Shown piece after piece: positions 18,919 through 32,334 of a stretch of DNA of 47,018 bases (positions within the stretch are counted from its first letter, which is position 1; every line of letters starts with the position of its first letter). The stretch is from an uncultured Verrucomicrobiota bacterium (GTDB taxonomy: Bacteria; Verrucomicrobiota; Kiritimatiellia; Kiritimatiellales; Pontiellaceae): assembly GCA_913065005.1 (NCBI GenBank), contig CAJYAJ010000007.1, positions 1 through 47,018 of the forward strand. Direction: 5' to 3'. The notes under the pieces were generated by a model. It had not been told where the DNA came from and did not search any database. It saw only the letters and a list, made by a program, of their open reading frames with translations. The position numbers were made by a program, and so were the translations under genes.

Positions 18919-19001
18919 TTAAACCTTAACTGCTGTGTTTCATCAAGAACTTGTAGGTTGTTCTGGGTGGGGTATATGTGGTGATAGGGAGTGTGTTTGA
19001 G

Positions 19002-21803
19002 ATGGGTATTAGAGGTGCTAAGATAGTTCTTATTTCTGGTTTAATCATGGCGCAGGGGGTCATTGTTTCTTCTGTTTACGGACAGGATGTTAAATCAGCA
19101 GGGATTTCAGAATTATTTTCTTCTGCAAATATGGCGTTACAGCAGGGGAATTATCAGGCTGCTATACCCATTCTTGAGGAAGTGGTGGAGCGGACGTCGG
19201 GGATTGATCAGGAGCAGGGACGGCAAACGTGTCAGACCTGTCGATTTCAGCTTACAAGAGCCTTTTTTCAAATTGGTGCGCCAGCAGATGCACTACCCGT
19301 TATTGAGGCGTATCTAGAAAACGAACCACGAGATCAAGAAGCACTGATGTTGCGGATGCAGGCACAGGCATATTTTGATGTGCAAGAGTGGAAAAAGGTA
19401 GAGACATCTGCACAGCAGTTGTTGAATATCCCTAAACTTTCTGAAGAGGATGAGTACAATGGAAACCTTTTATTGGGTCAGGCGTTGTTTCGTCAGGAAA
19501 AGTGGTTGGAAAGTATTGAGTCTCTTGCGTATGCGGGTCAGGAGTCGCCGGATGAGCGGACGAAGAATTTATGCAATATCATGCAGGTGCGTGCGTTGGT
19601 GGAGGCGGAAAGTTGGTCAAAACTTTTTGGTTTAATCCCTCGGTTATATCGTACCGATGCTAAATATGACATTACGTTGAACCTAACGTTAATGCGGGCA
19701 GGAAAAGCGCGGTATGAAGATGAGGACTATTTAAATTCTCTATTGCTGTATCGGATGGTTCTTCCGCGAGATGTATTATTGGGCTATACCGATTCTAAGA
19801 TTGATCGGCTTCAGAAAAAATTAAATTCAGATAAGCGGATCGGAATTATTGAAACGGAGGTCCAAAAACGCCAAGCAGAGATTGATGGTTTAGCTTCCTC
19901 AAAACAGGTATTGGTTGAATTGCCTGCCTACGAGGATGAAGTGACATTCCGGATTGGACAAATTTATGCCGAAATTAAGCGTTTTTGGGAAGGATTTGTT
20001 CTTTTTGATAAACTTTATCAGCAAGATCGAACCAGTGAAATTGGCGAAGCTGCGATGCTACAGTCGGTTCTTGTTTTGTATGATGTGAAAGAAATCAAAC
20101 GGGCTGAAGAGCGTATTTTAACGTATTTAAGCGAACAGCCGGACGGACAATATGCTCGTACACTGCTTTCTCTGATGATGCGTGATAATCTTGTGAAGCA
20201 AGAATTTGCAGATGTGGTTCGTCTGAAAGATAGCATGGATTTAATCCCTGAATCTTCCAATATTGATGAGCGGGCTTTACAGGCAGATCTCCATTATATG
20301 ATGGCATTTGGTCAATTCCAGAGTCGGAATTATGCTGGAGCAGAAGTTGAATTTGGGATGATATTGGCGGAATATCAAAACAGCATTCATTTTAATGATG
20401 CGCGTTATTATCGGGGGATGACTCGAATGCTTCAGGCACGTTATGCGGAAGCACTTGAAGACTTTGTAACCTATCGGGATCAAAATGGTTCGGGTGAGCA
20501 TGCGGCGGCGGCACTTTTTCGTTCAGGTGTGTGTCGGTTTGGTCTTGAGGAAATCGGAGAAGCGGAAGCGTTATTTTCGGAATTTATATCCACCTATACT
20601 GGAGATGTTTTAATTTCAGAAGCATATAGCATGCGCGGAGATATTGAAGCGTCGAAGGAGAGCACCCCGGAGGATCCGAATCCATTGGATCGGGCGCTTT
20701 CTGATTATCGAAATGGGATTGATACGGCGACGGCTCCTCTTCAATCCTCATATGCAGCGTTCCAGGCGGCGAAGGTATATAAACTGGAGGAGCGGTGGGA
20801 AGAAATCATTGAGTTGATGAACTATTACCTAGATCGATGGGAAGAACTTGCCAATGTCGCTGAATCTACCTTCTGGATTGGACAAGCTCAGACGGAGCTC
20901 GGGCAGTTAGATGAAGCAGTGAATGCGTATGTTGATACGATCGAACGCTTTGGAAATGATTTACTTCAAGAGGGTGTTGATAAAATCATATTGGAGTTAA
21001 AGAGAGTCGCAAATGAGTCGATGAGCGAGGAAGATCAGGCCTTTTTGGCAGACCGTATAGGCTTCTTAAGCGAAGATGTGATGGAGGGACAAGCGGTTTT
21101 ACAAGTACGTTTGCGAGCCTTGGAAGCGATGCTGAGTGGAACGGAAGACATATTTGGGCAATCGCTGATTGCAGATGAAGTTGCTTTAACAGATTTATCC
21201 CCCGTGAGTCTAGGTATTCTTGCAGATGTGCTTGTGAACGCGGCACCGGATCGCGTGGATGAAGTTGCGACTTATTTTATCGCCTCGTATGAAGATTCGG
21301 AGTTGCTTTGGAAGGCGCATCGGGCGCAGGCTGAGTTGCTTTATCAAGAGGAGCGGTTGGATGAACTGCTTGATGTCATTGAAGAAGCTCAAAGCTTATT
21401 CGGAGCAGATGAATATATGGATTGGGCTCAAATTATGAAAGCGGAAGCGCAATTTTCAATGAAGGATTATGAAGGAGCCGAAGAGTCGTATAATATGGTT
21501 CTTGGTGTGGCTGAATGGCGTGGAGCTACGTATGCAAGAGCGATGATTGGGATGGGAAATTGTCGAATGGAAAAAAATGATTTGGATGCGGCTCATTCAT
21601 TTTTCCAGCGAGTATATCTGCTCTTTAAAGGGTATGACGATGGATTATGGGCGGCGCAGGGCTATATCGCGGCGGCAGAAACGTTGGAGTCGTTAGGACG
21701 TCTGGAAGAGGCGGAAAATACGTTGCTCTCTATGATGGAAGATTCATACACACAGAATCATCCGCTTGTGGAAGAAGCTCAACAACTATTGAAGCGCTTG
21801 TAG
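19002..21803 (+). CDS. Large periplasmic tetratricopeptide-repeat protein
   Basis: About 933 residues from ATG 19002 (AGGGAG ten bases upstream); GTG 18978 in frame is the alternative. A signal peptide is clear: basic MGIRGAK, a hydrophobic stretch, and a site near SSVYGQD. The mature part is a long array of TPR-like helical pairs, for example NMALQQGNYQAAIPILEEVV, QFQSRNYAGAEVEFGMILAE, YRGMTRMLQARYAEALEDFV, AQTELGQLDEAVNAYVDTIE and QFSMKDYEGAEESYNMVLG. There is no enzymatic domain. Such superhelices are protein-protein scaffolds. Because it opens a cluster with an ExbB/TolQ and two ExbD/TolR subunits, it is probably a periplasmic partner of that motor. The exact partner is unknown. Confidence 0.8.
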   Translation: MGIRGAKIVLISGLIMAQGVIVSSVYGQDVKSAGISELFSSANMALQQGNYQAAIPILEEVVERTSGIDQEQGRQTCQTCRFQLTRAFFQIGAPADALPVIEAYLENEPRDQEALMLRMQAQAYFDVQEWKKVETSAQQLLNIPKLSEEDEYNGNLLLGQALFRQEKWLESIESLAYAGQESPDERTKNLCNIMQVRALVEAESWSKLFGLIPRLYRTDAKYDITLNLTLMRAGKARYEDEDYLNSLLLYRMVLPRDVLLGYTDSKIDRLQKKLNSDKRIGIIETEVQKRQAEIDGLASSKQVLVELPAYEDEVTFRIGQIYAEIKRFWEGFVLFDKLYQQDRTSEIGEAAMLQSVLVLYDVKEIKRAEERILTYLSEQPDGQYARTLLSLMMRDNLVKQEFADVVRLKDSMDLIPESSNIDERALQADLHYMMAFGQFQSRNYAGAEVEFGMILAEYQNSIHFNDARYYRGMTRMLQARYAEALEDFVTYRDQNGSGEHAAAALFRSGVCRFGLEEIGEAEALFSEFISTYTGDVLISEAYSMRGDIEASKESTPEDPNPLDRALSDYRNGIDTATAPLQSSYAAFQAAKVYKLEERWEEIIELMNYYLDRWEELANVAESTFWIGQAQTELGQLDEAVNAYVDTIERFGNDLLQEGVDKIILELKRVANESMSEEDQAFLADRIGFLSEDVMEGQAVLQVRLRALEAMLSGTEDIFGQSLIADEVALTDLSPVSLGILADVLVNAAPDRVDEVATYFIASYEDSELLWKAHRAQAELLYQEERLDELLDVIEEAQSLFGADEYMDWAQIMKAEAQFSMKDYEGAEESYNMVLGVAEWRGATYARAMIGMGNCRMEKNDLDAAHSFFQRVYLLFKGYDDGLWAAQGYIAAAETLESLGRLEEAENTLLSMMEDSYTQNHPLVEEAQQLLKRL

Positions 21804-21813
21804 GAGAATTTGA

Positions 21814-22677
21814 ATGAAAAAAGGGGTTTTATATTTTTTGATAGTGGCAATGGGATTGACAGGATCCATTCAGGCCGCTCCTTTGAACGTGGAGTTGATC
21901 ATGTCTGGGGGAAGAGCGTGGAAAGGGCAATTAATTAAGCGAGACGGAGATTGGGTTGAATTTTCAACGGGTGTTTCTGCACGGCCGATTCGATTGGGTG
22001 CAAGTACCATTGAGCGAATTAATTATAACGTAAAAATCAATTTGGAACAGTTACTTCAACTGAAAGAAGATCGTGAATTTAATAGACTGATTTCAAACTT
22101 AAATCAGGTGCTTGCACCTTTTAAATCGTATCAGGACATCCCTTCCAATTTAACGCGATATCGTGCTTTGTTGATGGAGCTATATTTTTTAACGGAAGAG
22201 TATGATCAAGCATTAGCCTATGCGACGCAATTGGTATCCGATGGTGGAGATGATGTGGCATTGGTTGAGAATGCGCAGACCTTTCAAGCACTGTCTCTTA
22301 TTGAGAGTGGTCGGTCTGATGAGGCAGAGGTGTTGATGGATCAATTAGGTTGGTTGGGGGAGTTGCGAGAAGACTCGAATCCCAAGCAACTCTATTTAGG
22401 CGCCAAGTTGATGAGCGTTAAAGAAAAATATAATCAAGCCATGGAGTTGATTGCGTATGTAATTGCATTTAATTCGCAGGATACAGAATGGATGCAGCCG
22501 GCGGAGTTGCTTTGCGCAGAAATTTATATGGAATTGGGAATGCTTGATTCAGCAGAAGAAGTGATTCGACAGATTTCATTGCTCTATCCCAATACAGCAG
22601 AGTACGATGCCTCTCTCATTTTAAAAGAGAAGTTGGTAGAGTTGCGTGCGATTGAGGCACTTGAAACCGATAGTTAA
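21814..22677 (+). CDS. Periplasmic TPR-like protein, second partner in ExbBD cluster
   Basis: 287 residues. A signal peptide is seen (MKKGVLYFLIVAMGLTG..IQAA), then a small beta-rich N-terminal domain (~22-70: VELIMSGGRAWKGQLIKRDGDW...IRLGASTIERINY), like a short SH3-like module, and then TPR-like helices (~85-280: EEYDQALAYATQLV, ESGRSDEAEVLMDQLG, KYNQAMELIAYVIA, LGMLDSAEEVIRQIS). It starts ten bases after the large TPR gene and precedes the ExbB gene by 25 bases, with good Shine-Dalgarno sites. I do not recognise a named family. Confidence 0.7.
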   Translation: MKKGVLYFLIVAMGLTGSIQAAPLNVELIMSGGRAWKGQLIKRDGDWVEFSTGVSARPIRLGASTIERINYNVKINLEQLLQLKEDREFNRLISNLNQVLAPFKSYQDIPSNLTRYRALLMELYFLTEEYDQALAYATQLVSDGGDDVALVENAQTFQALSLIESGRSDEAEVLMDQLGWLGELREDSNPKQLYLGAKLMSVKEKYNQAMELIAYVIAFNSQDTEWMQPAELLCAEIYMELGMLDSAEEVIRQISLLYPNTAEYDASLILKEKLVELRAIEALETDS

Positions 22678-22702
22678 TTTAACAACGACAGGAGAACAAA
22701 AA

Positions 22703-23455
22703 ATGAAAAATAGGAAAAAACAAATGGGCCTGATCCTTTTGATGCTAGTGGTTACCACATCGGCTTTTGCGCAAGCAGAGGGAGGTATTACAGAGGAAAA
22801 AACAACTTTATGGCAAATGATTTTGCAAGGTGGCTGGGCGATGATTCCATTGGGATTAATGTCAACGGCTATGGTGTATTTTATCGTTCAAAACGCATTG
22901 GCGCTTCGTGAAAAGGTACTTTTACGTCCGGATTTATTGCCTGAATTTATTGCGTTAATGAAGAATAAGAAAATTATCGAGGCCCATTCGAAGTGTAAAG
23001 AGAATGAAACGTTATTTACCTATGTGTTTCAGGCGGGACTCGAACGGTGTTCTACAACGCGTGAAATTAACTTTGGTAAAGTGAAAGAAGCGATCGATGA
23101 AGCGAGCACGGAAGAGATAACGAGCTATATGAAGCCGATCGATTATCTGTCGATTATTGGTGCTACAGCGCCGATGTTAGGACTGTTGGGAACCGTTTCA
23201 GGTATGATTAAAGCGTTTCAAACGATTGGTTCTCAGGGCATGGGTAAACCAGAAGTATTAGCCGGTAATATTGGTGAGGCATTGGTTACTACCGCGACTG
23301 GGTTGATTATTGCCATTCCTGCGATGCTCTTCTATTACTACTTCCGGAATAGCTTTATTAAAACGACCGCTTCTTTAGGCCGTAACATTGGGGGCCTTTT
23401 GGATACGTTGGAAACAGGTGAATTGCCGCTTGGGTTTGCGGAACATTCTGAGTAA
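22703..23455 (+). CDS. MotA/TolQ/ExbB proton-channel protein
   Basis: 250 residues from ATG 22703 (AGGAG at 22690-22694); the longer frame would overlap the TPR gene. An N-terminal signal-like helix ends at TSAFAQAEG, then three transmembrane segments: MIPLGLMSTAMVYFIVQNAL, and the TolQ core GATAPMLGLLGTVSGMIKAF (~160-180) and GEALVTTATGLIIAIPAMLFYYY (~205-227). The conserved Thr residues of the ion path (GLLGTV, TTATG) are present. With the following ExbD proteins it would convert proton-motive force to motion in the periplasm. A cleavable N-terminal signal on ExbB is found in several non-proteobacterial phyla. Confidence 0.92.
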   Translation: MKNRKKQMGLILLMLVVTTSAFAQAEGGITEEKTTLWQMILQGGWAMIPLGLMSTAMVYFIVQNALALREKVLLRPDLLPEFIALMKNKKIIEAHSKCKENETLFTYVFQAGLERCSTTREINFGKVKEAIDEASTEEITSYMKPIDYLSIIGATAPMLGLLGTVSGMIKAFQTIGSQGMGKPEVLAGNIGEALVTTATGLIIAIPAMLFYYYFRNSFIKTTASLGRNIGGLLDTLETGELPLGFAEHSE

Positions 23456-23487
23456 CTGAAGCAGTATGCTCCTGAGAGAGGTATAGC

Positions 23488-23892
23488 ATGAAACTGAAAT
23501 TACCAGCTCGCGAAGATGCTGCGGTAGATATGGCTCCGATGATTGACCTTGTTTTCCTGTTGTTGATCTTCTTTATGGTTGCATCGGTGGTTACAGAGCT
23601 GGAAAAAGTGGAAGTGGAAATCCCCGAATCAAATTATGCAAAAGTACCGGAAGATACGAAGGGTCGTATGATGCTTTCGGTTGATGCAAATAATGTGATT
23701 TATGTAGGAACACTAGCTGTTACCATTCAGGAATTGAAGACTTTGGTGGAGTCTGAGTTGGATGTGAATCCGGATTTGCGAGTCTTAATTCGTGCGGATC
23801 AAGTAGTGGAATATAAAACTTGTAAAGAGATTATGATTGCTTGTGGTGAAGTGGGTGCAACCGACCTTATCTATGCAACATTTGAGGAATAA
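23488..23892 (+). CDS. ExbD/TolR-type biopolymer transport protein (first copy)
   Basis: 134 residues with a short cytosolic N-terminus, one transmembrane helix with the essential Asp in MAPMIDLVFLLLIFFMVAS (about residues 16-34), and a periplasmic ExbD/TolR domain (VEIPESNYAKVPEDTKGRMML...ADQVVEYKTCKEIMIACGEVG). It would form the rod of the TolQ/TolR-type motor. It ends two bases before the second copy. Confidence 0.93.
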   Translation: MKLKLPAREDAAVDMAPMIDLVFLLLIFFMVASVVTELEKVEVEIPESNYAKVPEDTKGRMMLSVDANNVIYVGTLAVTIQELKTLVESELDVNPDLRVLIRADQVVEYKTCKEIMIACGEVGATDLIYATFEE

Positions 23893-23894
23893 AG

Positions 23895-24329
23895 ATGAAG
23901 CTAATCGATGAAATGATTAACAAAAAAGCGGAGTTACAAATTGCTCCTTTGATCGATGTCGTTTTCCTGCTTTTGATTTATTTCATGGTCACGGCTTCTT
24001 TGATTAAGAAGGAAGCGGATTTAGGTTTTATGTTGCCTGCGAAGGTGGATGTTCCAGAATCTTTAGATATACCGATTGAGGTCTTAATCGAAGTCTCAGA
24101 ATTAGGTGATATTTTAATTGAAGGAATGGTGTTTGGAAAAGACGAGAGCAATTTAGACGATTTAATTGGGCAGTTGTTATCGTTGAAAGAGGCAGCAGAT
24201 TCTTCGGGCAGTGAGTTGATTGTGAATATTCTTCCGGCGGATAAAGCACTCCATGGGCGCATTATTAATGTGATGGATGCGTGTGCAGCTGCGAATGTGA
24301 AAAATATGTCTTTCAGTATGACGATGTAG
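23895..24329 (+). CDS. ExbD/TolR-type biopolymer transport protein (second copy)
   Basis: 144 residues. The transmembrane helix APLIDVVFLLLIYFMVTASL carries the same essential Asp, and the periplasmic domain differs strongly from the first copy (PESLDIPIEVLIEVSELGDILIEG...DKALHGRIINVMDACAAANV). The two are therefore distinct subunits, not a recent duplication, and may form a heterodimer. It is the last gene of the cluster and faces the convergent M16C peptidase gene across 57 bases without a clear terminator. Confidence 0.93.
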   Translation: MKLIDEMINKKAELQIAPLIDVVFLLLIYFMVTASLIKKEADLGFMLPAKVDVPESLDIPIEVLIEVSELGDILIEGMVFGKDESNLDDLIGQLLSLKEAADSSGSELIVNILPADKALHGRIINVMDACAAANVKNMSFSMTM

Positions 24330-24386
24330 TCAAAGCGCACGTTGCTTTTCTCACAGATCATCGGTCTATATTGATATTTATTTTTC

Positions 24387-27275
24387 TTACAATACGATTG
24401 TTTGTGTTTTTAATCCTGCACGTGCGGCTGATTCTTGATCACATAGAACTGCCACGCGCGGATTACGAAATGCAGCATCTAAGATTTCTCCGAACTGATT
24501 AAAATGCTGTTGTGTGGTTGAAAGGACTTCGTCGCGTAATTGTTGACGTTTAGTGTCCGTGTAACCAACTAGTCTACGCTTAGCATTAGTGAATGATTTT
24601 GAATCAGGCAGCATGTAGGCATCTAACTGACCAATGGCTCCGATTAATGATCGGGTAAGTTCGGCTTCATCTAATTTTAGATCTTTTAGGAACTGCCCGG
24701 TCTGTTGATATATTTTGATTGAGTCTTCTAAGTTAGGATCGCGATAGGATGCAAATGTAAATGTTCCTACTCGTTGATCAAATGCACACATACCGCCATA
24801 AGCACCCCCTTGAACTCTGATTTTTTCCCAAAGCCATGCTGTTTGTAAATAGCGACTTATTACGAGTGCGGATCCATGCATTTGATAGTTTTGCTCATAT
24901 AAATTAGCGGCTGCTCCAACAAAATTAATTCGACTTGGAACAATGAGGGCTTCGGAAACTGGATAGGTCTGTTTACTGAGTTGGATGGGGTGATTTGAGC
25001 ATATTGGAAGCGTGGATACAAATTGCTCAACCTGAGGCGTTACCTTTTTTAACGCGGAGCTTTCAGCAGTGAGATTAACTAAGATGCCGTTTTGTGATAT
25101 AATTTTCTGATGAATGGTTTGAATTTTCTGACGAATGGTTAACCAGTCGGTATCAATACGTTCAAGAAGATCTCGTGCAAAGAAGAGGGCATCAATACCC
25201 CCTATTTTTTCATTCAGGGTATATGCTGCATGATCGGTTGCTTTGAGTCGCGTTATCACGGCCGAGTGTCCTCTCGGAATGATGGAGCTTTCGATATCAG
25301 ATTTGTGTTCGAGGACTATTTGTTTAAATCGGTCGGGGTCATCAAATGTAGGGTAAAGAAAGATCTCTTTAAAAAGGTGAAGGAGGTCATCAACTCGAGG
25401 AAGCATACATTTTCCACGAAAGAAAAAGTGATGAACGCTATGGGAATCTTCTTCATGTGGGGAGATGAAAGGTGTGCCATAGATGCCGCCGGTTGTAATC
25501 GCAATGCGTTGTGATAAATCAGTGTAGGTTTTATTTTTGGTTCCCATTTCAAGGTAGAGGTTGCCGAGTAGAGATACATATGGGATTTCATCTTCTTCTA
25601 GTGTATTTAGGTTAAGTCCTAGATCCATATATAGAATGCCATTGGTGAATAGAGGGTGTTGGAGAATGGTGGCTTCTTGATGGGGTTGTTCTTGGCAATC
25701 AATGGGTTTGATTTGGGGTTCGAGATCTTTTCGATTGAGTAGAGGCAACGATGCAATTGCTTCGGTTGAATCTGGGGTTTCTTGAAGCTGCATGAGGGAT
25801 ACAGTTTGCTGTTGAATTTTTTTGAGTTCGGTTAAACTCATTCTTTCTTTAATGGTGGCAAGACGCTTTTTTTCAGCGGTTTCTATTTCGGCAGCGAGAC
25901 CGGGATCTGGGTGAAGGGTTACGGTCGAACGATGAGTGTTTTTGATAAAATATGTTTGGAGCATGGCTTCAAAAAATCTGGGTTGTTGAGCCTGTTGTTT
26001 CAGTTGTTGTAAGGGTTTTTCGAAAGCAATGAGTTCGAGAGGATCGGCGCCATAGACCCATCCATTAAGTGATTTTAACCAGAGGGCAAGTCCGCGTGGA
26101 AATCCGCCTGAGTTGTTTTCACGTAGTTCAAATTCGAAACTATTCAAGGCGGCATGAATGTCTTGCTCAGAGATACCATTGGTTGCGAGCGTTTGAAGCG
26201 TATCAAAAATGAGGGCTTCTGCTTTTTCTAGTTGTTTTTTCTCAACACCTTTTAAACCAACACAAAAGCACATTTGCTTTAGATGAGTTTCAAGACCCCC
26301 GCCTGTTAAATCTTCCCCTAATCCCGATTCAATAAGGGCTTTTCTTAGTGGAGAGGCAGGAGTGCCTAGAAGAATATGATCAAGCAAGGTAAAGCTAAAG
26401 ACTGTTTCTGCTGTGGTAGGAGTGGGAAGAACCCAGTTGATCGTGAACATGGGTGTTGGGTTGGGCTCACTTTCAGAAACGGCATAGGGACGGCTAATTC
26501 GAGTGGGTTCGGAAAATGGTTTTTGTAGGTCTACAGCCGAATTGGGTTTTATCTTTGAATAGCTATCCAAGTATTCCGCTAAAAGACGAAAGCGGTCTTC
26601 TTCAGGATCGTCTCCGTAAAATACAATGCATGCATTGCTTGGATGATAGAAATTAGAATGAAATTCTTTAAATGCTTCATAGGTGAGTTGAGGAATGATT
26701 TCCGGTTTGCCTCCTGAATCTAATCCGTAGGTCGTATTTGGAAAAAGTGATTGTTGCGAGGTTTCCATGAGAACTGACTCTGAAGAGGAGTAAACTCCTT
26801 TCATTTCATTATAGACCACACCTTTATATTCTAAAGGCTGATCGATCTCTTCTAGATGATAGTGCCATCCTTCTTGCATAAAGAAATCACGGGTAATGCG
26901 AGGTTTAAAGACGGCATCCAAGTAGACTCCTACGAGGTTGTGGAAATCCTGGAGGTTTTGACTGGCAACGGGATAGCAAGTTTTATCGGGATAGGTGAAT
27001 GCGTTCAGGAAGGTTTGTAGGGATCCTTTCAGAAGTTGGACAAAGGGGTCTTTGACGGGATATTTCTCAGATCCACACAGAACGGTGTGTTCTAAGATAT
27101 GTGCCACTCCAGTGGAATCTTGCGGAGGGGTTCGAAAGGCAATACCAAAACATTTATTTTCGTCTTGATTGGAGAGGAATAAAATCTCAGCTCCCGTGTC
27201 CTCGTGTATATATATTTTGGCTTCGGTATCGAGCTCTTGAATATGCGTTTGTTGAATGAGTGAAAATGAGTTCAT
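24387..27275 (-). CDS. M16C zinc metallopeptidase, presequence protease (PreP)-like
   Basis: 962 residues, the normal size for single-chain M16C/PreP enzymes. The inverted zinc motif HILEH is at residues 59-63, with the third ligand expected in the VVYNEMKGVYSS segment about 90 residues later. The M16C domains follow, including the helical hinge region (~470-540) and a C-terminal half with GGAYGGMCAFDQRVGTFTFASYRDPN, the Arg/Tyr-bearing block that completes the active site. It degrades short peptides such as cleaved signal peptides. There is no signal peptide, so it is cytosolic. It is followed by no other gene on this strand. Confidence 0.93.
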   Translation of the reverse strand: MNSFSLIQQTHIQELDTEAKIYIHEDTGAEILFLSNQDENKCFGIAFRTPPQDSTGVAHILEHTVLCGSEKYPVKDPFVQLLKGSLQTFLNAFTYPDKTCYPVASQNLQDFHNLVGVYLDAVFKPRITRDFFMQEGWHYHLEEIDQPLEYKGVVYNEMKGVYSSSESVLMETSQQSLFPNTTYGLDSGGKPEIIPQLTYEAFKEFHSNFYHPSNACIVFYGDDPEEDRFRLLAEYLDSYSKIKPNSAVDLQKPFSEPTRISRPYAVSESEPNPTPMFTINWVLPTPTTAETVFSFTLLDHILLGTPASPLRKALIESGLGEDLTGGGLETHLKQMCFCVGLKGVEKKQLEKAEALIFDTLQTLATNGISEQDIHAALNSFEFELRENNSGGFPRGLALWLKSLNGWVYGADPLELIAFEKPLQQLKQQAQQPRFFEAMLQTYFIKNTHRSTVTLHPDPGLAAEIETAEKKRLATIKERMSLTELKKIQQQTVSLMQLQETPDSTEAIASLPLLNRKDLEPQIKPIDCQEQPHQEATILQHPLFTNGILYMDLGLNLNTLEEDEIPYVSLLGNLYLEMGTKNKTYTDLSQRIAITTGGIYGTPFISPHEEDSHSVHHFFFRGKCMLPRVDDLLHLFKEIFLYPTFDDPDRFKQIVLEHKSDIESSIIPRGHSAVITRLKATDHAAYTLNEKIGGIDALFFARDLLERIDTDWLTIRQKIQTIHQKIISQNGILVNLTAESSALKKVTPQVEQFVSTLPICSNHPIQLSKQTYPVSEALIVPSRINFVGAAANLYEQNYQMHGSALVISRYLQTAWLWEKIRVQGGAYGGMCAFDQRVGTFTFASYRDPNLEDSIKIYQQTGQFLKDLKLDEAELTRSLIGAIGQLDAYMLPDSKSFTNAKRRLVGYTDTKRQQLRDEVLSTTQQHFNQFGEILDAAFRNPRVAVLCDQESAARAGLKTQTIVL

Positions 27276-28417: not shown

Positions 28418-28504
28418 GCACCCGTGGTGAAATTGGTAGACACGCAAGATTCAGGTTCTTGTGCCAGCAATGGCGTGATGGTTCGACTCCATTCGGGTGC
28501 ACCA
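28418..28504 (+). tRNA. tRNA-Leu (anticodon CAG), CCA encoded
   Basis: 87 bases. Acceptor stem GCACCCG/CGGGTGC pairs perfectly; anticodon stem CAAGA/TCTTG encloses loop TTCAGGT with anticodon CAG at 28452-28454 (reads CTG). A long variable arm (TGCCAGCAATGGCGT) marks a class II tRNA, as for leucine. The T arm GATGG-TTCGACT-CCATT is normal apart from a wobble pair, and CCA is encoded at 28502-28504. Confidence 0.97.
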
Positions 28505-28608
28505 CTTTACGGTTTCGTTGGGATCTTGCTTATTTTCTCTCTGTGAAAACCGTTTCGACCGGCTTAAAAAAAGAGTACATTCGCGCGCTTCAATATAGGG
28601 AGGTATGT

Positions 28609-30717
28609 ATGGATGTCGCTGAGATTAATGAGAGTTGGTTTGATGAACAGGCCCAAGCAGAGTCGTTAGATCGGGATCTATGCCATACGGTTTTATCTGC
28701 CTTAGCGGATGCGGGTCGCGTGAGTGATGCATTGAGTGGCGGGCAACAACTCTTGGAACAATATACAGAGCAGAGTCGATTGGATGATGCGATTTGTGTG
28801 TTGAGTTGGTTGGCGGAGCATTCGGGTTCACAAGAGGATGTTATTGATCGTCTTAAAAAAATATTTGGTCGTGATAAAAATGCGATGAAGCTGATTGAAC
28901 CAGCAGGATTTGGTTCATCTAAACCATTGGCAAGTTGTTTTGAGCGATTGGTTTATCTGCGGAGTCTAAAAGAAGGAGCTCTTTGTTATCATACTACATG
29001 GGGCTTTGGCGTCGTTGAAGAGATTGATTATTTTTATGCTGAACTGGAAATTAATTTTGAGCAAAAGGGAGATCATACCTTAGCATTTTCTTATGCAGCG
29101 GAATCGCTAGAGTTATTGGATGAGCATCATATTCTTGTACTTCGGCATCGGGATCCTGATGGATTGCAGGAGCAGATTAAAAAACAACCCGGTGAGGTCA
29201 TCCGGTTGGCACTACAAAGTTATGGGAATATGAGTGTGGCACTTTTAATGGAGCGATTGGTGCCATCGATTGTTCCGGAAAGTGGTTGGAAACGATTTTG
29301 GGATGGAGCACGTAAAGCGTTAAAAGAGGATGCTTCTATTGAGATTCCGCGGAAACGTAGTGAGTTGATCGAATTGCGTGATGGTATGGCGTATGACGAT
29401 ACTTGGTTTGTGAAATTAGCTGAGGAGCGAGATATCACAAAGCTGTTTGAGCGCTTTAAAGAGGTGATTGAGCGAGGATTGGATACGACCACTGAAACAG
29501 CCCAGCAGGTATTGAGCGAGCGGTTGGCGTTTGTGATAGGGGGAGCACCGAATGCGAAACCGGAGTGGAAAGCAGAAGGGTTCATCTATGCTCGTTTGCT
29601 TGATGTTGAACCGGTGGGGCTGGATGTGGATGCCATTTTGCATGCACTCATTGAATCTGATTTGGGCGGTATGTTAGATCAGTTGCCGAGTCGTCAGCTT
29701 GAAACTTTGTTGGCGATTTTATTTGAGAACGATAAAGAGGCTTTGGTGTTGCGGTTGAAGCGAGTGGTTCCGAAGGTGAGTCATCCAGTATTTAATGAGA
29801 TTATGGCTGCTTTCTGTCGTCATGGGGTAGAAGAGGTTGCAAAAGAGATTATGGCCGCCGCGTTGGGTCGGCGAAAGGCAAGTGCCCCGATGTTATTGTG
29901 GTGTCAGCGTTCAGAAAAAAAGGTTCGGGAGTGGAATTTAATCTCGAAAAGCGATTTAGCTTTCCGGATTCAAGAAGTTTTGGAAAAAGAGTTATCGGGA
30001 GCGCTATTGCGAGCTCAGAATCAGTTGCGTGAAAAATTCCAACAGCAAGAGTGGTTGCATGATGTGATGGATGAGATGAGCGAGCAGCAACGCCGTGATT
30101 TTATGCGTCGGATTAATGAAGGGCAGGGTTGGGAAGTCTTGGACCGTAAATCGGTATTGGCAAAAGTATTGCGAAAATATCCCGAACTGCAAGATATTGT
30201 GACGCCTGCAGGTTCGGCTGCGCCGAAGAGGGAAGTGCCTTTAACATCATCGCGTTCGTATCGGGAACGTCAGGCTCAGCTGGAAAAATTGATGAAAGTG
30301 GATATTCCTGAAAACTCAAAAGAAATTGAAGTGGCTCGGAGCTATGGAGATTTACGCGAAAATGCTGAATTTAAATATGCGAAAGAGCGTCAGGGATTGT
30401 TGATGGCTCAAGGGTCTCAGTTGGCTGAAGATTTAGAAAAGGTGAAGCCGAGTGATTTCGAAGATATTCCATCAGCTGTTGTGGCCATCGGAACCGGTGT
30501 TACATTGCAAAAAGAGGATGGAGAGGAGATCACCTATTTCATTTTGGGTGCCTGGGATCAGGATGATGATCTTCATATTTTATCTTCTGAAACGCGTTTG
30601 GCAAAAGCTCTGTTGGGGGCTAAGAGTGGAGCCTCGATTGAGGTACCAGAAGGGCAGGTGCTTTTGAAAGAGGTTCTGCCACTTTCCGCTGATATAAAAG
30701 CCTGGATTCGTGCTTAA
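28609..30717 (+). CDS. Transcription elongation factor GreA-like domain fused to a long N-terminal extension
   Basis: 702 residues from ATG 28609, fixed by AGGGAGG at 28597-28603; a longer frame would start inside the tRNA gene. The last ~155 residues are GreA: the coiled coil RQAQLEKLMKVDIPENSKEIEVA, the tip GDLRENAEFKYAKERQG with the catalytic Asp and Glu, and the FKBP-like domain (GTGVTLQKEDGEEITYFILG...GASIEVPEG). The preceding ~540 residues are mostly helical, with a TPR-like start (~20-80) and a small domain at ~120-180 (GALCYHTTWGFGVVEEIDYF). GreA rescues backtracked RNA polymerase by transcript cleavage. Chlamydial GreA has a comparable ~700-residue form, so this architecture is a PVC trait. 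It follows tRNA-Leu by ~100 bases. Confidence 0.85.
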   Translation: MDVAEINESWFDEQAQAESLDRDLCHTVLSALADAGRVSDALSGGQQLLEQYTEQSRLDDAICVLSWLAEHSGSQEDVIDRLKKIFGRDKNAMKLIEPAGFGSSKPLASCFERLVYLRSLKEGALCYHTTWGFGVVEEIDYFYAELEINFEQKGDHTLAFSYAAESLELLDEHHILVLRHRDPDGLQEQIKKQPGEVIRLALQSYGNMSVALLMERLVPSIVPESGWKRFWDGARKALKEDASIEIPRKRSELIELRDGMAYDDTWFVKLAEERDITKLFERFKEVIERGLDTTTETAQQVLSERLAFVIGGAPNAKPEWKAEGFIYARLLDVEPVGLDVDAILHALIESDLGGMLDQLPSRQLETLLAILFENDKEALVLRLKRVVPKVSHPVFNEIMAAFCRHGVEEVAKEIMAAALGRRKASAPMLLWCQRSEKKVREWNLISKSDLAFRIQEVLEKELSGALLRAQNQLREKFQQQEWLHDVMDEMSEQQRRDFMRRINEGQGWEVLDRKSVLAKVLRKYPELQDIVTPAGSAAPKREVPLTSSRSYRERQAQLEKLMKVDIPENSKEIEVARSYGDLRENAEFKYAKERQGLLMAQGSQLAEDLEKVKPSDFEDIPSAVVAIGTGVTLQKEDGEEITYFILGAWDQDDDLHILSSETRLAKALLGAKSGASIEVPEGQVLLKEVLPLSADIKAWIRA

Positions 30718-30777: not shown

Positions 30778-32334
30778 ATGCCAAAGGTAGAAGAACAAGG
30801 GCGGGTACGGGCGCATCGCTGGCGCGATAGTATCTTTGTTCAGCTGGTTATAAGATATCCGCGATCGGCTCGATTGCTCCTGTTGGTTCTTGTGTTGAGT
30901 ATCTCGTATCGAATTTGGGGAATTGGATCGTATCTGCTTGCTCAACGGGCTCGAGTGCAGGTGATCGAATCGATACGAGCGGATGAGCCGAATCGATTTG
31001 AGGAAGCGCAGCAGATACGAAAAAAACTCGATCAAATCATTCAAAACACGCAAGCCTTTCCATGTGCCGAAGAGGTGGCTTTGGAGGCTTCATTGGCGAA
31101 GCGGTGTAGCGAGTGGCAGCGGGATGCTGAGCAGGCCTTATCATTGTTTACTGAGATGGCAAAGCGAGATGTACTTGATCCGGAGCGGGTGGCGGATTTT
31201 AGTTGGATTTGCGCTCGCTCAGCGGCATGGAGTTTATTGGTAGAGAAGTATGAGCATGCGCTGGATTGGTTGGTTCGGGGTGAGACGTGGCGCTTGACGA
31301 TGGATCTAGCAATGCCGGAGGAGGCCATGCGTGCGTGGGAGGCATTGCGAAAAGAGATCATGGGGTTGGCTTCCATGCAAATCTATGTGCCGGCGGTGGT
31401 ACGTGAAGTGATTGTCTGGCCGCTAATGGATGATGGAGCGCGTCGGGTGCAGAGCGATCCCATTTTACGTACAGATCAATATCCTATTAAGTGTGAGGGG
31501 GTAAGATCGGGGAGTTACTTGATTTGGGCGGCATTACCGGATGCGGGTTATCAGGCGTATCCAGTCCAGATAGATCGGCATTCATCCGTCGAGGTGGAAC
31601 TCACTTTGCCGGGGGTTGTATTGAATGAGTGGAAGTATGTGCCAGCGGGGAACTTTTTGAGCGGGGGAAGTGCATCGGGTTCCGTGCGATTGCATTCGGT
31701 GTCGTTGCCTGCTTTTTACATTTCACAAGATGAAGTAACTATTGGTTCTTATTTGGAGTTTTGGTCCTCCATCGAAGATATGGAATTAAAGGAGGAATGG
31801 GCTGCCTATTATTCTGATTCGACTCAAGAGCGTGTCATGCTTTGGGATAATGAGGGGGGGTTGCAATTACCTGCGTTATCGTTAGCACACCCGATTATTG
31901 GGATTACGGGCGAAGCTGCTGAAGCATACTGTCGTTGGAAGAGTCGCAAGATGGGACGAGTGATACGTCTTCCATATGATGTGGAGTGGGAAAAGGCGGC
32001 TCGGGGAGTAGATGGACGCGAGTATTGCTGGGGTAATGGATTGGAAGATGTAGCATCGTTTTTTAATGTAGGTGGTTTTTCAGGGCAAGGGATTGATTTT
32101 ATGGAACCTGTGGGCTCTCGGTTGAGAGATGCTTCTATTTACACGGTGCGGGATATGGTGGGTAATGTTCGTGAGATCACTTTATCTTCTTCTGTCGGTG
32201 AGGGTCGATCCTTTGGTGTGAAGGGTTCTAGTGGTATTAATTCGTTGGAAGTATCGGCTTGTGCGAGAGTGGAAGCGTTTGAAAAACGGTCGAAAGATGT
32301 TGGGTTTCGAATCGTTATGGAGAATATCAACTGA
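30778..32334 (+). CDS. Membrane-anchored SUMF1/formylglycine-generating-enzyme-like protein
   Basis: 518 residues. A transmembrane helix at ~34-56 (LLLLVLVLSISYRIWG) anchors the protein after a basic N-terminus. Residues ~60-200 are helical, ~200-280 look like a small beta domain, and ~285-515 form the FGE-sulfatase domain: WKYVPAGNFLSGG, FYISQDEVTIGSYLEF, PIIGITGEAAEAYCRWKSRKMGRVIRLPYDVEWEKAARG, YTVRDMVGNVREI, and VGFRIVME. In the active-site region only one Cys remains (SACARVEAF), so the two-Cys site of true formylglycine enzymes is incomplete; it is probably a binding or scaffolding domain. GGAG precedes the start. Its stop shares one base with the next gene's start. Confidence 0.8.
   Translation: MPKVEEQGRVRAHRWRDSIFVQLVIRYPRSARLLLLVLVLSISYRIWGIGSYLLAQRARVQVIESIRADEPNRFEEAQQIRKKLDQIIQNTQAFPCAEEVALEASLAKRCSEWQRDAEQALSLFTEMAKRDVLDPERVADFSWICARSAAWSLLVEKYEHALDWLVRGETWRLTMDLAMPEEAMRAWEALRKEIMGLASMQIYVPAVVREVIVWPLMDDGARRVQSDPILRTDQYPIKCEGVRSGSYLIWAALPDAGYQAYPVQIDRHSSVEVELTLPGVVLNEWKYVPAGNFLSGGSASGSVRLHSVSLPAFYISQDEVTIGSYLEFWSSIEDMELKEEWAAYYSDSTQERVMLWDNEGGLQLPALSLAHPIIGITGEAAEAYCRWKSRKMGRVIRLPYDVEWEKAARGVDGREYCWGNGLEDVASFFNVGGFSGQGIDFMEPVGSRLRDASIYTVRDMVGNVREITLSSSVGEGRSFGVKGSSGINSLEVSACARVEAFEKRSKDVGFRIVMENIN

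Follow-up and report, generated by a model that had tools for sequence, protein, structure and literature searches.

The operon studied here raises the question of what a bacterial envelope motor drives when one ExbB/TolQ-type channel and two different ExbD/TolR-type subunits are encoded together with two secreted TPR proteins. It lies in a 47,018-nucleotide stretch of DNA (contig CAJYAJ010000007.1, here C7; the whole stretch is called the window) from a marine Kiritimatiellales metagenome-assembled genome of 1.2 Mb in 44 contigs, which is 79% complete. The overall best explanation is a proton-driven trans-envelope motor with periplasmic partners, most likely serving the uptake of large glycans, and we regard this explanation as evenly balanced between being right and being wrong. 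The strength differs among its parts. We are highly confident that the module is a motor with periplasmic TPR partners, and it is likely that it acts through a transducer. Glycan uptake as its task, read from sequence homology, is a serious candidate that we put forward tentatively.

The machine itself is not new. The cluster belongs to the kind of motor described in June 2025 for bacteria of the Planctomycetes-Verrucomicrobia-Chlamydiae (PVC) group, with function unknown, which consists of a TPR protein, a tolQ-like protein, two different tolR-like proteins and a TonB-like vWA transducer (Mol Biol Evol, msaf138, PMC12204202). A preliminary description of the window, made from its sequence alone, had called the motor uncharacterised, which holds for its function but not for its gene set, already published for PVC bacteria in that paper.

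An operon conserved with its two ExbD subunits

All five genes reported in the preliminary description were found where it placed them, on the forward strand and separated by short gaps of, in order, 10, 25, 32 and 2 bases. The first, tprL (19002 to 21803), encodes a long secreted protein of 933 residues with TPRs recognized by Pfam; its frame opens at a GTG at 18978, which would give 941 residues, and the ATG at 19002 is the likelier start. The second, tprS (21814 to 22677), encodes a short secreted protein of 287 residues, likewise with TPRs by Pfam, and signal-like N-termini can be read directly from the sequences of both proteins. These are followed by the ExbB/TolQ-type channel subunit of 250 residues from its ATG (22703 to 23455; PF01618 MotA_ExbB, E = 1.8e-29) and by the TolR-type subunits ExbD1 (23488 to 23892; 134 residues; PF02472, E = 3.7e-25) and ExbD2 (23895 to 24329; 144 residues; PF02472, E = 5.5e-17). 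The GTV and TTATG threonines are both retained in ExbB, whose nearest solved structures are ExbB and TolQ, and each ExbD has a P-x-I-D motif and a membrane Asp (Asp20 in ExbD1 and Asp21 in ExbD2).

The five-gene operon occurs in full three times in the genome, on contigs C7, C1 and C10, and C10 has an additional TPR-ExbB-ExbD cluster. Within the order, tprS is present in 40 of 43 genomes, mostly in two or three copies each, and tprL, tprS, ExbB, ExbD1 and ExbD2 stand together on one strand in 68 of 68 testable loci, namely those with enough upstream sequence. Because these loci were selected by tprS, the co-occurrence of the motor genes is an independent finding, and the recurrence of the gene order implies that the cluster is not a product of chance. 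The TPR genes are thus conserved with the motor genes, upstream of them in every one of these loci, as the preliminary description would lead one to expect. In the rest of the phylum, where loci were chosen by ExbD2, ExbD1 lies immediately upstream in 40 of 40, and 27 of the 40 keep the order TPR-ExbB-ExbD1-ExbD2 with a long TPR protein, 23 of them with a gene for a vWA or PA14-type transducer downstream. About ten of the loci outside the order have the ExbD1-ExbD2 pair alone; pairs lacking a nearby ExbB or TPR gene were seen in L266, L268, L276, L282, L285, L288, L289, L291, L293 and L298. The named contigs with the closest ExbD2 come from UBA8747 ('Verrucomicrobia bacterium', 99%), from Pontiellaceae and from other Kiritimatiellales.

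The two ExbD subunits are clearly different, as had been noted: ExbD1 and ExbD2 of the window operon share just 22% identity, whereas identity rises to 36-53% when each is compared with its own counterparts in the genome's two paralogous operons. In a tree of 214 ExbD proteins, the copies stay distinct, with an ExbD2 clade of 101 sequences (support 0.97) and an ExbD1 clade of 96 sequences (support 0.91) that do not mix. We take the split to predate the radiation of the phylum, and the pair to have been kept together since. Such an ancient divergence with joint retention fits an ExbD1:ExbD2 heterodimer, which may be surrounded by five ExbB subunits. Extra ExbD copies occur in the type-B operons L054, L076 and L082, where a second, diverged ExbD2 follows the first (in L076 as part of a second ExbD1-ExbD2 pair), and some motors may therefore choose among several ExbD subunits. 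An apparent ExbD1-ExbD2 gene fusion, suggested by frames of 250-300 residues in some genomes, turned out to be an artefact, in which the extra N-terminus comes from reading across the ExbD1 gene out of frame. A distant relative (L172:7224-18385) has two different long-TPR/ExbB/ExbD clusters in tandem on a single contig.

Is this operon simply the Tol-Pal or TonB system of the cell? Neither the cluster nor its neighbouring genes include TonB, TolA, TolB or Pal. The preliminary description was correct to this extent, but its statement does not hold for the genome, in which a separate TolQ-TolR-TolA-like-TolB-Pal operon is found on contig C35 and a single TonB_C match on contig C23. Since the cell has these genes elsewhere, the window cluster is neither its Tol-Pal nor its TonB system, and the picture of a motor of the 5:2 type that is distinct from both and has two TPR partners dedicated to it stands. 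The ExbB/TolQ and ExbD/TolR families and the S-xxx-H helix of the transducer are shared with Tol-Pal and TonB-ExbBD; unlike these, the cluster has no TolB, no Pal and no C-terminal head of the TolA or TonB type. The motor could still be a second machine of the Tol-Pal kind for envelope maintenance, pulling peptidoglycan or outer-membrane partners through CpoB-like TPR proteins for envelope cohesion or cell-wall coordination. In line with this idea, the TPR proteins score best in NCBIfam against YbgF/CpoB and BamD (none of these matches reaching the cut-off), ExbD2 scores best against TolR, and the near-universal presence in the order is as expected for housekeeping. However, a YbgF match is expected of any TPR array, the genome has a complete Tol-Pal operon besides this cluster, and the two to three diverged copies found in a genome suggest that they are specialised for different substrates. 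We consider a second envelope-maintenance machine unlikely.

A sixth gene, lost from the window operon

In the window-type operons of at least 13 relatives, a gene for a protein of 400-445 residues lies directly after ExbD2. Its product has a single helix at the N-terminus, which like that of TonB and TolA bears S-xxx-H, followed by a K/P-rich stretch and a globular domain. The preliminary description had assumed a system devoid of a TonB-like partner, and had named a linked TonB or TolA gene in relatives as evidence that would speak against it. The assumption was wrong: the relatives encode a transducer with a TonB/TolA-like helix next to ExbD2, while the window copy has been lost and its paralogue is unlinked. 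In part, the relatives do provide the evidence named: a TonB-like protein normally follows the operon, but its head is vWA or PA14/SHD1-like, and a TonB-C head is found in none of the linked transducers.

In deeper relatives, the transducers retain a vWA MIDAS-like motif and match VWA models weakly; the MIDAS-bearing transducer of L172 does so at E = 1e-4, below cut-off. The vWA transducer profile gave weak matches only in the PDB, mostly to vWA proteins (E 0.06-0.9). The vWA assignment is made because of the L172 protein and the 2025 paper, in which AlphaFold 3 models have the transducer docked on the motor (PMC12204202). According to the same paper, which uses the Kiritimatiellota member Tichowtungia aerotolerans as its exemplar, the vWA transducer is 'often' adjacent to the motor genes, so that adjacency is not strictly defining. 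The window-type operons resemble this motor in the TPR gene upstream of the tolQ-like gene, in the different tolR-like pair and, in relatives, in the vWA protein directly downstream. They differ in that the vWA gene of the window operon is lost and its paralogues are unlinked, in that tprS, a second conserved TPR protein, belongs to the set, and in the PA14/SHD1-like transducer of a sister operon, which is not in PMC12204202.

The nature of the heads bears on a further reading, in which the motor supplies additional energy to ordinary TonB-dependent receptors. In keeping with such a role, ExbD1 has its best score against the ExbD of TonB systems, and one TonB_C match and a single plug domain of a TonB-dependent receptor are found in the genome. 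Three motor copies for one receptor, and linked transducers carrying vWA or PA14/SHD1-like domains in place of a TonB_C head, make this role highly improbable.

The loss from the window operon can be located precisely. ExbD2 and the M16 protease gene that converges on it are 60 bases apart (24330 to 24389, with no strand assigned), and at this place the close relative G005 has a gene for a 440-residue TonB-like vWA protein; the sequences of L050 were compared with those of the window and of L126. Comparison of the neighbouring sequence also found the transducer gene absent beside the operon in the near relative G010. From these comparisons, we conclude that the window operon has lost its linked transducer gene. 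At the position after ExbD2 in the sister operon on C1, there is a 616-residue protein with an equivalent TonB-like helix, a PA14-like domain recognized by eye and a weak SHD1 domain; an AlphaFold model of the PA14/SHD1-type transducer, built from four sequences, was too poor for use (mean pLDDT 50.7). In L095, L108, L110, L121, L123 and L170, this type is divided between two genes, one for a TonB-like, PA14-like protein and one for an SHD1-like protein that is secreted on its own.

Unlinked vWA transducer paralogues are encoded on contigs C6 and C10 of the same genome. The C6 protein, in which T replaces S in the motif (hence S/T-xxx-H), groups with support of 0.999 with the transducer of L105, whose gene immediately precedes a window-type operon in another genus. 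This grouping leads us to infer that the window motor uses the C6 protein in trans, and we consider the partnership, judged from sequence, to be probable; the operon, having no transducer of its own, would then borrow this paralogue. Two genes upstream of the C6 gene lies that of a sulfatase. On that contig (L150:7348-11088), the sulfatase, a 294-residue protein with no Pfam match and the TonB-like vWA transducer lie on one strand beside tuf, nusG and rplA, and the same arrangement is found in G010 (L152).

Homology to Mul1B and the proposed task

The preliminary description had likened the motor to the AglRQS gliding motor of Myxococcus with its Glt proteins. The likeness extends to one TolQ-like and two different TolR-like proteins, as in AglR, AglQ and AglS (PMC3169522), and to TPR and TonB-like proteins that work with the motor. 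Unlike in AglRQS-Glt, the TPR genes of the window share an operon with the motor. A motor that achieves motility by carrying adhesion complexes along the envelope would also agree with the TonB-like motif in GltG, and gliding has been suggested for the PVC vWA transducers (PMC12204202). Against it, the NCBIfam matches of the TPR proteins include no Glt model, although which Glt models exist was not checked, and the homology of tprS described below is a lead away from motility. The cultured relatives are not known to be motile. A motility motor is therefore very unlikely in our view: the analogy with AglRQS has stoichiometry as its sole basis, and as a functional lead gliding is the weaker reading in comparison with glycan uptake.

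The lead toward glycans comes from two loci of one genus in the same phylum (L306 and L308), with the gene order ExbB-ExbD1-ExbD2-long TPR-347-residue protein. The 347-residue protein is Mul1B by the NCBIfam model NF052542 (E = 5.1e-87, 292 bits, cut-off 75), and from these matches the genus (g103) is most likely Akkermansia. Mucin uptake by Akkermansia needs the mucin utilization locus MUL1, and PMC12418764 is cited on the side of a glycan role. ExbD1 and ExbD2 of both loci fall inside the same D1 and D2 clades as those of the window (0.87 for the D1 grouping and 0.79 for the D2 grouping). When the Mul1B family was aligned to the tprS family with hhalign, the two were colinear over 264 columns (probability 98.1, E = 8.5e-14), and the aligned part takes in the N-terminal beta domain, which is not TPR, whereas the control comparison of Mul1B with the long TPR proteins gave a probability of 0.6. 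This beta domain is five-stranded in the AlphaFold2 model of tprS (mean pLDDT 87.6; strands at 24-71, TPR helices at 77-286), which had generic TPR proteins as its sole fold matches in the PDB. Across the phylum, at least nine genomes have a sub-cut-off match of the Mul1B model that falls on a tprS gene lying some 2 kb from ExbD2. By profile comparison, tprS is remotely homologous to Mul1B over its full length, a link that is new here; the text of PMC12204202 mentions neither Akkermansia nor mucin.

Together with the same ExbD1/ExbD2 pair in MUL1, this homology favours proton-driven glycan uptake over a gliding motor. The Mul1B link, the 21 sulfatase matches in the genome and the sulfatase near the C6 transducer all point to energised glycan uptake as the preferred function. 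Proton flow past the membrane Asp residues of the ExbD heterodimer would produce rotation, and the transducer, docked on the motor by its S/T-xxx-H helix, would pull or push a partner in the periplasm or outer membrane for which the TPR proteins serve as scaffold. The result may be energised import of large glycans into the periplasm, as with the related MUL1 for mucin in Akkermansia.

Several points weigh against glycan uptake. The window tprS, like every other protein of its genome, has no match to the Mul1B model NF052542, and the over-cut-off Mul1B family is restricted to one family and thus narrowly distributed. The Akkermansia-type locus has a different gene order, with the motor genes first and the TPR genes after, and no adjacent transducer, although it resembles the window operon in its long TPR protein. 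The gene content of MUL1 is in part presumed, and the assignment of L306 and L308 to Akkermansia is a probable one. Sulfatases are frequent in this group and may have nothing to do with the motor. The operon has no linked gene for an outer-membrane channel, and MUL1 has been called mucin-specific and absent from aquatic Akkermansiaceae (PMC13174399).

A broader and more speculative proposal is that the motor is a phylum-wide, TonB-independent and proton-driven importer of large glycans, with an obligate ExbD1:ExbD2 heterodimer and exchangeable transducers bearing vWA or PA14/SHD1 heads. Akkermansia MUL1 would be a rearranged, gut-adapted member, and some members, including that of the window, would have lost the linked transducer and would depend on one whose gene lies elsewhere. 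If this were true, MUL1 would be one version of an old machine common to marine degraders of sulfated polysaccharides and not an invention of the gut. Through the Mul1B link and the common ExbD pair, a widespread Verrucomicrobiota motor so far described without a function gains a testable one, the selfish uptake of large glycans, for which Akkermansia offers a genetic model.

Neighbouring genes and a fourth cluster

Upstream of the operon lie fabF and a gene for a Na+/H+ antiporter, and the convergent downstream gene encodes the protease, of M16/PreP type. Farther along the window, positions 28459-30717 encode a protein of 752 residues with GreA/GreB domains at the C-terminus only and a long N-terminal extension. 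At 30778-32331 there is a protein with an FGE-sulfatase domain of the sulfatase-modifying factor type, which fits the sulfatase matches in the genome. A fourth, different cluster (L017:9999-14271) encodes an 830-residue TPR protein, ExbB, ExbD and a protein of 230 residues with no Pfam match, the end of which looks TonB-C-like by eye.

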